Assembly: GCA_021295755.1 (NCBI GenBank)
Contig: JAGWBT010000005.1
Coordinates: 1-52,689, forward strand
Reading direction: 5' to 3'
DNA from: Candidatus Poribacteria bacterium
GTDB lineage: Bacteria; Poribacteria; WGA-4E; PCPOR2b
Length of the DNA: 52,689 bases
The position numbers were made by a program, and so were the translations under genes. How positions within the stretch are numbered: the stretch's first letter is position 1; the number at the start of each line of letters is the position of its first letter. Below the pieces are notes generated by a model. That model did not search any database, was not told the DNA's origin, and saw nothing but the letters and a program-made list of their open reading frames with translations. This document shows, piece by piece, positions 40,080 through 45,165 of the stretch.

Positions 40080-41204
40080 TTAAAAGTCTGCAAAAGAACC
40101 GTCGTCCTCGTGCCAGAACATCCCCCGCAACCGGTAGGTTTCGTCCCGAAATGCTTCGATGGCTTCATCTTCCATATCCACGCCTAGCCCTGGTGCTGTC
40201 GGCAGCTCGATAAATCCGTCCTTCAGGATTAGTGGCTCGTTAAACAACCCCTGTCCGCGATTGTGACCGCCTTCGCAAATAAGTAGGTTAGGTATAGTCG
40301 CTATCACGTGCACCGACGCTGCGACCCCGATAGGACCGGCTGCGTTGTGTGGGGCAATCGCCATGTTGTGAATCTCCGCCATCGTCGCAATCTTTTTTAA
40401 CTCCATTATCCCGCCGGAGTGTCGAATATCGGGCTGCAAGATGGCGCACATCTCGCGCTCGATTACTTCTCGGAAACTCCACCGCGTCAGGTGGCGTTCC
40501 CCTGTCGCAATCGGTACTGTCGTTGACTGTGACAACGCCAACAGCGGTTCGTTGTTCTCTGGATGGCACGGTTCCTCGGCAAATAGTGGTCGTAGCGGTT
40601 CCAATTCTCTCACGAAGATCTGCGCCATCGTGGGACTGAAGCGGCGATGGAGATCGACGGCGATATCCACCTCGTCGCCCACCGCTTCGCGCACCGCTGC
40701 CACCCGCGCCACCATGGAATCAATTGCTTTCGGTGTATCCACAAAACGCACGGGACCTTGCGAACCGCCCATCTTCACTGCGCTGAAGCCTTTCTCAACT
40801 GCAGCTTTCGCGTTCTCCGCGCACTCCTGCGGCGTCGATCCTCCCGATGCCGTGTATACACGGACGCGTCGACGTACCGATCCGCCTAGCAGTTTCCAGA
40901 CCGGCAACCCCACCGCTTTGCCGAATACATCCCACATCGCCATCTCGATTCCGCTTAGCGCACCGACCAGTACCGGCATACTCCGGCTGTAACTGGATCG
41001 GAACATGGCTTGCCAGTGGTCTTCGATTTGCAGGGGGTCCCTGCCTACCAGATACTCTGCCATATCGTCTACTGCTTGCGCAACTGGACGCCAATGTTCG
41101 TAGTTCATCGGTTCGCCGAAGCCGACTAAGCCTTCGTCGGTGAACATCTTCAGAACCATCGAGCGTCCTCGTATCGGAATCGTTTCAAACCCTGTTATTT
41201 TCAT
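40080..41204 (-). CDS. Mandelate racemase/muconate lactonizing enzyme family (enolase superfamily) dehydratase
   Basis: A 374-residue enolase-superfamily protein, probably a sugar-acid dehydratase. Capping-domain N-terminus MKITGFETIPIRGRS, then barrel residues: Asp in IAVDLHRRF, Glu in FAEEPCHPE and Glu in ATGERHLT as the three Mg ligands, and His in IAPHNAAGPIG as catalytic base. The HN-GP-type arrangement resembles the galactonate/gluconate dehydratase group, but the substrate cannot be told from this. AGGAG is 6 nt before ATG 41204, and a near-consensus promoter lies 44 nt further up. Confidence 0.88.
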   Translation of the reverse strand: MKITGFETIPIRGRSMVLKMFTDEGLVGFGEPMNYEHWRPVAQAVDDMAEYLVGRDPLQIEDHWQAMFRSSYSRSMPVLVGALSGIEMAMWDVFGKAVGLPVWKLLGGSVRRRVRVYTASGGSTPQECAENAKAAVEKGFSAVKMGGSQGPVRFVDTPKAIDSMVARVAAVREAVGDEVDIAVDLHRRFSPTMAQIFVRELEPLRPLFAEEPCHPENNEPLLALSQSTTVPIATGERHLTRWSFREVIEREMCAILQPDIRHSGGIMELKKIATMAEIHNMAIAPHNAAGPIGVAASVHVIATIPNLLICEGGHNRGQGLFNEPLILKDGFIELPTAPGLGVDMEDEAIEAFRDETYRLRGMFWHEDDGSFADF

Positions 41205-41359: not shown

Positions 41360-41407
41360 ATCGCAAGTTGCCGTCTATCTTATAGGATTTACGCAGTTGG
41401 TTCATAA

Positions 41408-41481
41408 GTCCCCCTGATTTTCCAAAGTCCCCCTGACAAGGGGGATTTAGAGGGTTGGGGATTTAGGGGGTTAAAAATAAA
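41408..41481. repeat. CCCCCT/AGGGGG repeat with hairpin, upstream of the defence-like island
   Basis: Runs of TCCCCCT-type and AGGGGGA-type words, with a 7-bp hairpin TCCCCCT-GACA-AGGGGGA at 41428-41445. The 352-nt gap 41205-41556 otherwise holds two promoter-like sites on opposite strands and no gene. Confidence 0.6.
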
Positions 41482-41556
41482 AAATCTCGCGCTGCGTGCT
41501 GAATTTGCACAAGTCCTGTCTTAGAAGAACTGATTTTTTAGCAATGGAGGAACACA

Positions 41557-41793
41557 ATGAGTCAAGACGGATTAAGTCCTGAGATTTACAAACAAACACT
41601 GGACTTCCTGCGAATCGGCAATCGTGCTGTCAAAAGGGCACAGGAGGAAGATCGAAAAAAAGGCATCCCAAATGTCTACTCTTTTAATGGGCACATCTAC
41701 TACGAACTACCAAATGGGGAATTGACGAAGGATAAAAAAATAATAGACGAACTGCTCTCAGCCGTTGAAAAGAAACTTCAAGGTAAACATTAG
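41557..41793 (+). CDS. Hypothetical small protein, 78 aa
   Basis: An unrecognised charged protein: a helical N-terminal half (SPEIYKQTLDFLRIGNRAVKRAQEEDRKKG), a short beta-like middle (VYSFNGHIYYELPNGE) and a helical Lys-rich tail. Strong ribosome site GGAGG 6-7 nt before ATG 41557. It opens the cluster that continues with a 27-aa peptide and an AAA ATPase. The size and charge are those of an antitoxin-like or accessory protein, which is only a guess. Confidence 0.7.
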   Translation: MSQDGLSPEIYKQTLDFLRIGNRAVKRAQEEDRKKGIPNVYSFNGHIYYELPNGELTKDKKIIDELLSAVEKKLQGKH

Positions 41794-41803
41794 AAAAATC
41801 GCA

Positions 41804-41887
41804 ATGTTCACTTCTGTATTGATGACTGCCGCGCTAATTGCAGGACTTTCCGCGATTTGGGCTGACAAGATTGGAACATTAACATGA
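41804..41887 (+). CDS. Putative 27-aa single-pass membrane peptide
   Basis: ATG 41804 opens a 27-codon frame, MFTSVLMTAALIAGLSAI then WADKIGTLT, ending at TGA 41885-41887. The middle is hydrophobic enough for one membrane helix. It starts 10 nt after the stop of the 78-aa gene, and its stop overlaps the start codon of the ATPase as ATGA. That overlap is the usual sign of translational coupling. It lacks a good ribosome site of its own, so it would depend on re-initiation. It could be a chance frame. Confidence 0.4.
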   Translation: MFTSVLMTAALIAGLSAIWADKIGTLT

Positions 41888-43065
41888 AAGATTCAACGTT
41901 TATCACAAGAGTTGCCCTAAGAAATTATAAGAGTATTGCCTCATATGATGTGCAGCTGCGCCCCCTGATGTTCCTCGTGGGGCCCAACGGCACGGGCAAG
42001 AGCAATTTTCTGGATTCTCTGCGATTTGTCGCTGATGGGTTGAATTCATCACTAGACCACGCCATACGTGATCGAGGAGGAATTAACGATGTTTACTGCC
42101 GCTCTAGCGGACGTCCAAAGTATTTCAGTATTCGCCTAGATTTCACCTTGCCCGAAGGTTCCACCGGACACTACGCTTTTCGTATCGGTGACTTTTCACG
42201 TGGCAGGTACAAAGTTCAAACGGAGGAGTGCGTACTTCAAAGCGTACAGCAACCTACACAGGAAGATTACTTCTATGTTGAAAACGGTACTGTAACTAAA
42301 ACCAATATGGAGGTGGCACCGGCTGCTGCGAAGGATCGACTTTACTTAGTCAACGCCTCCGGGCTGACAGAATTTCGCCCTGTCTACGAGGCGTTCTGCC
42401 GTATGGGATTTTATAGCCTCAATCTTGATAAAATCAAGGATCTCCAAGCACCCGACCCGGGTGACCTACTTACTCGTGACGGAAGCAACCTTGCAAGTGT
42501 TTTTAAGCAACTTTCACCGTCCGTGAAAGGACGCATTAAGGAATATCTAGCGGCGATTGTCCCCAGCGTGGATAAGATAGAAGCTAGAAAGTATGGACCT
42601 AAAGAGGGGTTAGTGTTCACGCAGGACGTTGCAAAAGCAACGGAGTCCCAACGATTTCTCGCAAATAATATGTCCGATGGCACCCTCCGCGCGTTGGGGA
42701 TTCTTGTCGCGCTGTTTCAGGGGAACTACGATCCGAAAAAGCGTGTGCTGCTTGTGGGAATCGAAGAACCAGAGAGCGCACTTCACCCGGCAGCGGTGGG
42801 GGTGTTGCTTGATGCACTCCGGGAGGCTGCTGACAAGACACAGATCATTATCACCAGCCACAGTCCAGACCTCCTTGATAACAAGGAGCTTGATCCTGAG
42901 TCAATTCTCGCGGTTGAAGCACATGATGGCATCACGGTAATCGCCGGTATAGATGAAGCAGGAAGGTCCGCAGTGCACGATCGACTGTATACAGCTGGTG
43001 AACTCCTACGCATCGATCAACTACAACCCAATCTGGACTCCATTGATACTGCAAAGGTGAAATAA
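41884..43065 (+). CDS. AAA family ATPase (AAA_21/AAA_15, OLD/RecF-like)
   Basis: A 393-residue ABC-type ATPase. Walker A is GPNGTGKSN (33-41), after NYKSIASYDV, the usual N-terminal strand of RecF/OLD-like proteins. The ABC signature is MSDGTLR (263-269), Walker B VLLVGIEEPES (288-298), and the switch His is His326 (ITSHSP). The insert between is short, so there is no large coiled coil, and no fused Toprim nuclease. Such ATPases sense or gate a separate nuclease in anti-phage systems; the partner would be the DUF4276 gene 64 nt downstream. The start overlaps the 27-aa frame by ATGA. Confidence 0.88.
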   Translation: MKDSTFITRVALRNYKSIASYDVQLRPLMFLVGPNGTGKSNFLDSLRFVADGLNSSLDHAIRDRGGINDVYCRSSGRPKYFSIRLDFTLPEGSTGHYAFRIGDFSRGRYKVQTEECVLQSVQQPTQEDYFYVENGTVTKTNMEVAPAAAKDRLYLVNASGLTEFRPVYEAFCRMGFYSLNLDKIKDLQAPDPGDLLTRDGSNLASVFKQLSPSVKGRIKEYLAAIVPSVDKIEARKYGPKEGLVFTQDVAKATESQRFLANNMSDGTLRALGILVALFQGNYDPKKRVLLVGIEEPESALHPAAVGVLLDALREAADKTQIIITSHSPDLLDNKELDPESILAVEAHDGITVIAGIDEAGRSAVHDRLYTAGELLRIDQLQPNLDSIDTAKVK

Positions 43066-43129
43066 CGCTGTTTGTTTAGTTTTAAGAACGGAAAATTCTA
43101 AACCGAATGCAAAAGAAGGGAAGTTGCAG

Positions 43130-43750
43130 ATGATAGTCAGAATCAGCTGCATTGTTGAAGGACATGGCTAAGTAAAAGCTGTACCAACCCTGATTACACG
43201 AATCGCAGCAACCCTTTATCCAGAATTGGTGATTGTTATACCGGAACCTATCCGCACTTCCAGAAGTAAAATTGTTCGGAAAGGTGAACTTGAGCGAAGG
43301 GTAGAATTAGCAGCTCAAAAAATTAAAGGCCAAGGTGCTATATTAATTCTCATCGACAGCGACGATGACTGCCCGGCAAAACTGGGGCCTGAGCTAGTCT
43401 GTCGCGCGTCAGAGGCTCGTAGCGATCTGCCGATTGCTGTCGTCTTGGCAAAATGCGAATTTGAAGCATGGTTCCTCGCAGCAGCCGAGTCACTTCGTGG
43501 CTATAAAGGGTTAAAAAACGACCTAACCTCTCCCCATAATCCAGAGGAGATACGTGGTGCAAAAGAGTGGTTGGGGCAACGGATGGAGGGCAACAGAAAA
43601 TATAGTCCAACAGCTGACCAACCCGCGCTCACAGCCAGTTTCGATCTTGATCAAGCGCGTTACGCAGATTCGTTCGATAAGTGCTATAGGGCTATCGCTC
43701 ACCTCCTCGACGAATTACAAAAAGCAGGCAGTTCACTACCTGCAAAGTAA
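43130..43750 (+). pseudogene. DUF4276 (Toprim-like) gene with an in-frame TAA at codon 14
   Basis: From ATG 43130 (AAGGGA 8 nt upstream) the frame reads MIVRISCIVEGHG-stop-VKAVPTLITRIAATLYPELV and continues open to 43750. DUF4276 proteins normally start with a strand ending in an EGHGE-like motif, then the IDSDDDCP-type acidic motif and EFEAWFLA; the last two are here as LILIDSDDDCPAKLG and CEFEAWFLAA. So the family is clear, and a single TAA (43169-43171) stands where Glu is expected. One change, GAA to TAA, would explain it. A start at GTG 43226 would give a 174-residue product lacking the first motif. It is either recently inactivated, read through, or a sequence error. Confidence 0.75.
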
Positions 43751-43923: not shown

Positions 43924-43989
43924 CTCCATGGAGCACCAAGCAATCCGCTCCGATTAACCCCGCCTTCAAATGAATAAGGAGGAATGACA

Positions 43990-45165
43990 ATGAGTACCGA
44001 CCAATCAGCAGCGAAACCGTATCGTGCTACCGCCTTTGCCGACTTCAAACCCGAACTCTCAGCACCCGGCGCCACACCAGAGCGTTTGGAACACCTGAAG
44101 GAGCACGGCTTCCTCATCATCAACGACTTTGAAGATAACCCGTGGATCCCGATTCTGCGCGACGCGGGTCGCCGTATCACTGAGGCGTGCGCACCTGCCA
44201 ACGGCTACAGCGTAATCGACTGTTCAAAAGCCTACGTGCACCGCACAGGCGACGATGAACCGTGGGCAATTCGGGGTCTCATCCATCCCGCTTTCAAGGA
44301 GCCCTGCTTTGCTGAATTCCACGGTTCTCCAGAGTTCCTGAACTTCGTTTCCTCTTGGTGCGATGGACTCGGACCGGAAGATATGGTGATGGGTGGGATG
44401 CTGCTGTGGTGCAACCCCCGTCTGCGTGAGAACGGACCGAGTTGGCACCGAGACGTGACATGGTGGGGCACCGGGAAGTCATACTTTGCACAGCGCGAAG
44501 TCCGAGGCGATGGGCCCGAGGCGTATACCGAAGAGATTGAAAGAATCCGCTGGGCAGAGATTCAAGAAAGCAATGAGAAGTCCCCCACTGAACGGAACGG
44601 CGTGAGCATGTTCTTGGCGCTGGTGGACGACGAATGCCATGAGCTGATACCGGGTAGCCATACGCGATGGCGCACGCCGTATGAACACGATGTGCTGCTG
44701 CCACAAGCGATGAAGGATGCAGGTGTGCCGCACACGCCGAGTTGGAATGGTAAGGATCCATTACCGGGGCAAGTTGCAATAAGACTCAAACCGGGGCAAG
44801 CGCTCATTCGCAACGGTGCGACGATTCACACGGGGCACGCTGTCCCCGAACGTGAACGGAACACGTTGTCAATCGGTTGGTCGAAATGGTCGGGCGAGTC
44901 TACCGAGGAACCATCGGTGGCGGACGTGCGAAATGCGTGGCAGCTCGATCCTGTGGTGCGCGAAGCATTGCCCCACGAATGGATGAAGACCACATGGGAC
45001 CGTTGGGCGGAAACACAGAAGTTGGGGGACACGCTTGAGGATCGGTACCCGGGGTTCGACATCAATCGGATCAAAGCTGGGGAGGTTATCGGCTGGCGGA
45101 CTGAGTTGGAACGTCAAGCCGCAGCGGCAGGCGAAGCGTGGGAACCCTTCCAAACAGCGAAATAG
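43990..45165 (+). CDS. Phytanoyl-CoA dioxygenase (PhyH) family protein, long form
   Basis: A 391-residue Fe(II)/2-oxoglutarate oxygenase, longer than its neighbours. Iron ligands His153-x-Asp155 (SWHRDV); distal His from IHTGH (His280 or His283) with Arg288/290 in the following loop. ELIPGSH is the family turn. An insertion of about 45 residues lies between them (YFAQREVRGDGPEAYTEE and on). The start is ATG 43990, since AAGGAGG is 7 nt upstream; ATG 43984 is too close to that site. It has its own near-consensus promoter. Substrate unknown. Confidence 0.88.
   Translation: MSTDQSAAKPYRATAFADFKPELSAPGATPERLEHLKEHGFLIINDFEDNPWIPILRDAGRRITEACAPANGYSVIDCSKAYVHRTGDDEPWAIRGLIHPAFKEPCFAEFHGSPEFLNFVSSWCDGLGPEDMVMGGMLLWCNPRLRENGPSWHRDVTWWGTGKSYFAQREVRGDGPEAYTEEIERIRWAEIQESNEKSPTERNGVSMFLALVDDECHELIPGSHTRWRTPYEHDVLLPQAMKDAGVPHTPSWNGKDPLPGQVAIRLKPGQALIRNGATIHTGHAVPERERNTLSIGWSKWSGESTEEPSVADVRNAWQLDPVVREALPHEWMKTTWDRWAETQKLGDTLEDRYPGFDINRIKAGEVIGWRTELERQAAAAGEAWEPFQTAK

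Follow-up and report, generated by a model that had tools for sequence, protein, structure and literature searches.

The two genes at 41884-43065 and 43130-43750 (both on the forward strand) of the window, by which we mean the whole stretch of 52,689 nucleotides analysed here, are probably a degenerate copy of HEC-01, a candidate anti-phage two-gene system, lying in a Poribacteria chromosome at a variable slot for defence genes. The window is contig 5 of a 5.03-Mb assembly in 257 contigs from a sponge-associated Candidatus Poribacteria. The first gene, HEC-01A, encodes a RecF/SMC/OLD-type ABC ATPase (AAA_21/AAA_15) of 393 residues with intact catalytic motifs, and the second, HEC-01B, which would encode a Toprim-like DUF4276 effector, is a pseudogene in this genome, with a nonsense mutation at codon 14. 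Residues 1-388 of the ATPase align with positions 1-388 of the 399 in the PADLOC HEC-01A model (PDLC04178; 507 bits, E 7e-153), and the DUF4276 gene matches HEC-01B (PDLC04196) with an E value of 8e-60 for the remnant, or 2.6e-74 once the stop is read through, the score rising from 200 to 248 bits. In all 80 relatives fetched with the DUF4276 alignment, which span more than ten phyla (Poribacteria, Acidobacteriota, Planctomycetota, Chloroflexota, Gemmatimonadota, Latescibacterota and others), the ATPase gene lies directly 5' of DUF4276. A first-pass annotation of this DNA had not recognised the layout as that of a described system. Such novelty is ruled out by these matches, which for both proteins stand far above those to other systems, the best of which gives the ATPase about 100 bits. 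HEC denotes Hma-embedded candidate, for genes located between Hma genes (PMC12111858, PMC12988326). The window shares both proteins and their order with the HEC-01 of PADLOC-DB 2.0, and in the sister genome G020 the pair has a direct Hma neighbour, but the window copy differs in its broken HEC-01B and in that Hma genes do not adjoin it. HEC-01 with both genes intact is not what the window holds, given the TAA in HEC-01B, and as sequenced the locus is a degraded copy of the catalogued candidate and no working system.

The ATPase carries every motif of the RecF/OLD/SMC type, which bears out the first-pass reading of its motifs. Walker A (GPNGTGKSN), the signature (MSDGTLR), Walker B (LLVGIEEPE) and the switch histidine (TSHSPDLL) occupy invariant or near-invariant columns among 48 relatives, and the family matches are strong (AAA_21, E 9e-29; AAA_15, E 2e-21). 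The predicted model (pLDDT 91.4) has a fold resembling the heads of PtuA, SMC, Rad50 and OLD, and when the PDB was searched by sequence, an OLD nuclease, PtuA and GajA were among the high-ranking hits. Between the strongly conserved motifs lie variable lobes, at about residues 101-145, 231-260 and 281-290 of the window protein, which from their sequence variation are candidates for a sensing surface.

Read from its ATG at 43130, the DUF4276 frame gives MIVRISCIVEGHG-stop-VKAVP. The in-frame TAA (43169-43171, forward strand) is codon 14, four residues past the invariant E10, and coincides with the second acidic position in VEG-x-x-E/D, so that the complete catalytic motif is missing from the window protein. 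Every other sequence in alignment A1 has E or D at residue 14, the sole exception being that of G021, a genome of the same genus, which has K. Reading through the TAA raises the Pfam DUF4276 score from 41.8 to 52.1 bits. The earlier assignment of this gene to DUF4276 therefore stands as a family match, but the 174-aa ORF on which it was based (43226-43750, forward strand) is only the 3' remainder of the gene. Its TTG start falls after the lesion and it is without the first strand, the first helix and the VEG motif; the break had gone unnoticed in the first-pass annotation. A few other genomes bore internal-stop marks in a phylum-wide search. In three of them (G081, G079 and G037) the annotated DUF4276 frames are full length from a normal start, and as such the mark reflects a stop near the C-terminus, and a fourth (G075) holds a frameshifted copy; the N-terminal nonsense codon of the window is therefore unusual. 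Within the window genus, represented by six genomes, DUF4276 is frameshifted in G020 and carries the E-to-K change at codon 14 in G021, and G018, G019 and G022 are without the pair, so that none of the six has a pair with the canonical residue. We considered whether the TAA is recoded as glutamate, or whether this is a genuine split gene, but relatives have sense codons at this position and lesions have arisen independently in the genus, so that loss of function is the simpler explanation.

DUF4276 is likely, with moderate confidence, to be a Toprim-type nuclease, an assignment based on the order of its motifs, its predicted topology and a profile match of moderate strength. The family conserves VEGxxE/D, DSD(D) and KxExEAWF in that order (V9, E10 and G11, E/D at residue 14, D76/D78, and K108, E110 and E112), and the OLD Toprim of G015 has the same three motifs in the same order (LEGKSD, LDSDKG, KRELENYI). 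Alignment of the DUF4276 profile with seven OLD Toprim domains (hhalign, E 7e-5, probability 63%) brings motifs I and II into register, and the predicted order of strands and helices, E-H-E-H-E-H-E, is compatible with a Toprim core. The assignment is no more than moderate because Foldseek found no convincing PDB match for DUF4276, the best hit (E 4.5e-3) belonging to an unrelated fold family. A PDB sequence search with DUF4276 and a viral scan for OLD relatives returned nothing useful.

AbiL and RloA/RloB consist of an ATPase plus a separate Toprim-like partner; the AbiLi model matches the window ATPase with E 1.5e-21, and the RloB family was found in none of 83 genomes of the phylum searched. 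The first-pass comparison of the pair with PARIS and split OLD systems, with an effector family other than DUF4435, proved sound. PARIS likewise pairs a separate ABC ATPase (AriA) with a Toprim-type partner (AriB, a DUF4435 Toprim tRNase), but the AriA models match the window ATPase with only 100 bits (E 5e-29), as against 507 bits for HEC-01A, and the window effector matches DUF4276 only. With the OLD nucleases of classes 1-3 (P2 Old, GajA, retron-Eco8) the ATPase shares its head fold and motifs, and DUF4276 repeats VEGxxE/D and DxD of the OLD Toprim domain, as well as KxExE, which is present in one OLD protein, although here the Toprim-like part is a separate polypeptide and no Pfam family other than its own matches DUF4276. 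HEC-04 (IbfA), of the same HEC series, follows the same functional logic (PMC12111858), but is a single fused ABC ATPase-TOPRIM protein, unlike HEC-01. A literature search on DUF4276 and HEC-01 found no mechanism. In PARIS, AriA keeps AriB sequestered; an infection trigger then brings about its release or its activation, and AriB acts as a tRNase (PMC12409363). By analogy, the OLD/SMC-type ATPase of intact HEC-01 copies may act as an infection sensor that restrains or activates the separate, putatively Toprim-type nuclease HEC-01B, and the activated nuclease would cleave nucleic acid and halt phage growth with an abortive outcome, as AriA/AriB would suggest. In the window genome the stop falls at an active-site position of the effector, leaving the ATPase as the only protein that could be produced; the system is probably inert. 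HEC-01 is a catalogued candidate, and its conserved motifs offer a testable claim of a split OLD/PARIS-like ATPase-Toprim system.

In the window the flanks of the pair are metabolic, with a mandelate-racemase-like enzyme (40080-41204, reverse strand) at the left edge of the variable slot and a PhyH-like dioxygenase (43984-45165, forward strand) at the right edge, followed by an epimerase-like gene. Sister genomes have a defence slot in this interval. In G020 the orthologous site reads HEC-01-HmaA-PtuA-PtuB-HmaB-HmaC-PhyH flank (E values 6e-197, 6e-129, 4e-34, 9e-126 and 1e-103 for HmaA, PtuA, PtuB, HmaB and HmaC, respectively), and after HmaC the same PhyH (94%) and epimerase-like (82%) genes resume; the association of HEC-01 with HmaA, B and C is therefore seen at this site and not in the window. 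We note that the Hma system at this locus (L206, G020 C71:26000-45000) is complete, and that Septu (PtuA-PtuB) is nested within it, after HmaA and before HmaB. HmaB and HmaC also lie beside an ATPase copy in G013. At the site of G021, HEC-01 is joined by an HTH-AbiV protein and a nucleotidyltransferase-like frame, and in G018 (L184) the interval between the mandelate-racemase-like and PhyH-like genes holds a nucleotidyltransferase-like gene, a second small frame and a 3' remnant of DUF4276; in G019, which has no pair, about 0.4 kb separates the flanking genes. Empty or scarred sites occur in G018, G019, G073 and G074. In several genomes of the Poribacteria family f4 the pair adjoins type III or type IIG restriction genes or an SNF2/PLD helicase, as with the type IIG enzyme and SNF2/PLD helicase of G027 and the type III restriction enzyme near the pair in G070 and related loci. 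An Eco57I-type restriction-modification gene stands in place of DUF4276 in G039 (L082) and after DUF4276 in G027 (L043). Whether AAA-DUF4276 pairs lie in defence islands had been posed as a check on the first-pass annotation, and with Hma, Septu, AbiV-like and restriction genes nearby they do. Neighbours outside the phylum were mostly metabolic, a point against the favoured explanation, in a scan that had no matched control, and as such we make no claim of enrichment from them.

Across the 85 Poribacteria genomes surveyed the ATPase is present in 61, including 55 of the 59 of family f4, where it lies between a PhyH-like gene and a sulfatase in nearly every genome. At this PhyH-sulfatase junction a scar of the ATPase 5' end remains in two of the four f4 genomes without the gene, whose absence there is therefore a loss. 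A near-universal, position-fixed pair in one Poribacteria family is unusual for a mobile defence system, and this counts against the explanation that we favour. The alleles occupying the slot are not vertically inherited, and the two genes are exchanged together as a cassette. Eight genome pairs, the closest available, have a median flank dS below 0.35, and in every one of them the dS of the ATPase was high, at 0.79-1.76 against a median of 0.12-0.26 for the flanks, and the dS of DUF4276, in those genome pairs where both copies are intact, was 0.78-1.67. DNA identity, mostly 85-98%, falls to about 60-80% near the ATPase start and recovers near the end of DUF4276, and one allele in the slot is mosaic. 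Fast protein evolution was rejected as the cause of this divergence, since synonymous divergence is also raised and the edges are sharp. The f4 alleles form one group (82% SH-aLRT) inside the Poribacterial clade, and exchange therefore appears to take place within the family. Import of alleles from other phyla was discarded, as the copies of families f1, f2 and f4 cluster in a single clade (98% SH-aLRT); that of G005, from another family, falls elsewhere. In the window genus the ATPase dS between the window and G021 (0.49) is below that of the flanking genes (0.72-1.65), and is again discordant with the flanks. It is this family-wide cassette exchange, together with effector loss, that makes the locus worth pursuing, more than the locus as first described.

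The effector is lost preferentially. Of the loci whose state could be assessed, 12 combine an intact ATPase frame with a DUF4276 that is broken or missing (G000, G020, G013 C144, G075, G059, G062, G080, G029, G050, G072, G039 and G063), and three show the reverse, a broken ATPase next to an intact DUF4276 (G013 C167, G060 and G061; binomial p 4e-4, with gene length allowed for). The counts derive from MAGs, so that assembly errors may account for some of the lesions, and related genomes do not count as independent. When DUF4276 was searched for separately, every genome that had it also had the ATPase. A second, orphan ATPase lineage without its own DUF4276, which is monophyletic, occurs in five genomes and is maintained at a dN/dS of 0.11-0.27, in tandem ATPase-DUF4276-ATPase arrays in G070, G084, G053 and G078 and as the ATPase alone in G080 (L046, L050, L062, L065 and L069). 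These observations, the ATPase dN/dS of 0.15-0.17 among congeners that have no sound effector, which indicates purifying selection, and the presence of the ATPase in nearly all f4 genomes would fit an ATPase with a role of its own, in DNA maintenance or the cell cycle, which persists where the effector is lost because DUF4276 is an optional partner. A precedent is Cran1, an archaeal OLD-family ATPase reported to act in DNA maintenance or the cell cycle (PMC12796447). However, DUF4276 always accompanies the ATPase outside decayed copies, whole-pair deletions with scars show that the ATPase can be dispensed with, the two genes swap alleles together, defence genes are among the neighbours, and an abortive-infection system would also be expected to lose a toxic effector first; we regard an independent role as unlikely. 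Preferential loss of a putative toxin would likewise fit a toxin-antitoxin-like addiction module, in which a toxic DUF4276 is kept in check by the ATPase and the unit persists since losing it is costly; the frames overlap or abut in many relatives, and the slot also houses nucleotidyltransferase-like small gene pairs. Such a module is compatible with phage defence, the two not being mutually exclusive, but the association with Hma, Septu and restriction genes and the size of the ATPase, with variable lobes as expected of a sensor, make this reading more doubtful still. Returning to HEC-01 as a defence system, a bolder form of it, to which we give rather little credence, is that in Poribacteria HEC-01 may be a near-core, position-fixed, allele-swapping immune locus, with the ATPase kept for its own function after effector loss, including in the orphan lineage. 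With some 55 alleles, nearly all in one slot, and relatives null for the effector or for the whole pair, Poribacteria offer a natural experiment, and the pattern would reveal whether fixed-site allele swapping is how immune genes diversify in uncultured sponge symbionts.

Two further readings bear on the window copy itself. The stop codon rests on a single MAG, the remainder of the DUF4276 frame is open and the DUF4276 dN/dS between the window and G021, at 0.28, is still below 1, all of which would be consistent with a sequencing or assembly error in a window that carries an intact HEC-01. That such an error explains the stop is improbable, given that the other two congeners with the pair are also lesioned, one of them at the same codon, and that identity to G021 is low for DUF4276 (68%) relative to the ATPase (85%). 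The other reading is that of the first-pass annotation, a novel four-gene island in which a 78-aa protein (41557-41793, forward strand) and a 27-aa membrane peptide (41804-41887, forward strand) are functional components. The 78-aa ORF, which has no family match above cut-off in profile searches, is genuine, and is 83% conserved upstream of the pair in one sister genome (G021, L036), but it is directly upstream of the pair in no other relative, and is best described as a lineage-specific passenger outside the pair. The region of the 27-aa frame was found in no genome besides G021, where a 1-nt indel breaks the frame (MLLLY, then stop), and the peptide is therefore unsupported as a gene and already refuted as a component. 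The two frames are thus not conserved next to AAA-DUF4276 pairs, save the 78-aa gene in G021, and we rejected them as parts of the system; a four-gene island is exceedingly improbable. Two features together had been named as counting against that island, pairs lacking the small genes and pairs standing apart from known defence genes; pairs without the small genes are indeed found, while pairs do adjoin defence genes. Between the left flank and the 78-aa gene lies a dispersed repeat (41373-41534, unstranded; about 150 bp, AAGTCCCCCTGACAAGGGGGATTTAGAGGG...) with 61 matches in its own genome, which is missing at the same site in G021 and is a MITE/REP-like insertion. Shorter homologues of the 78-aa protein, a family with the core NVYSxNGHxYYELPNGELT, occur in G014 and G013 (L044 and L091) about 0.7 kb downstream of the pair, about 2.6 kb past the ATPase start.
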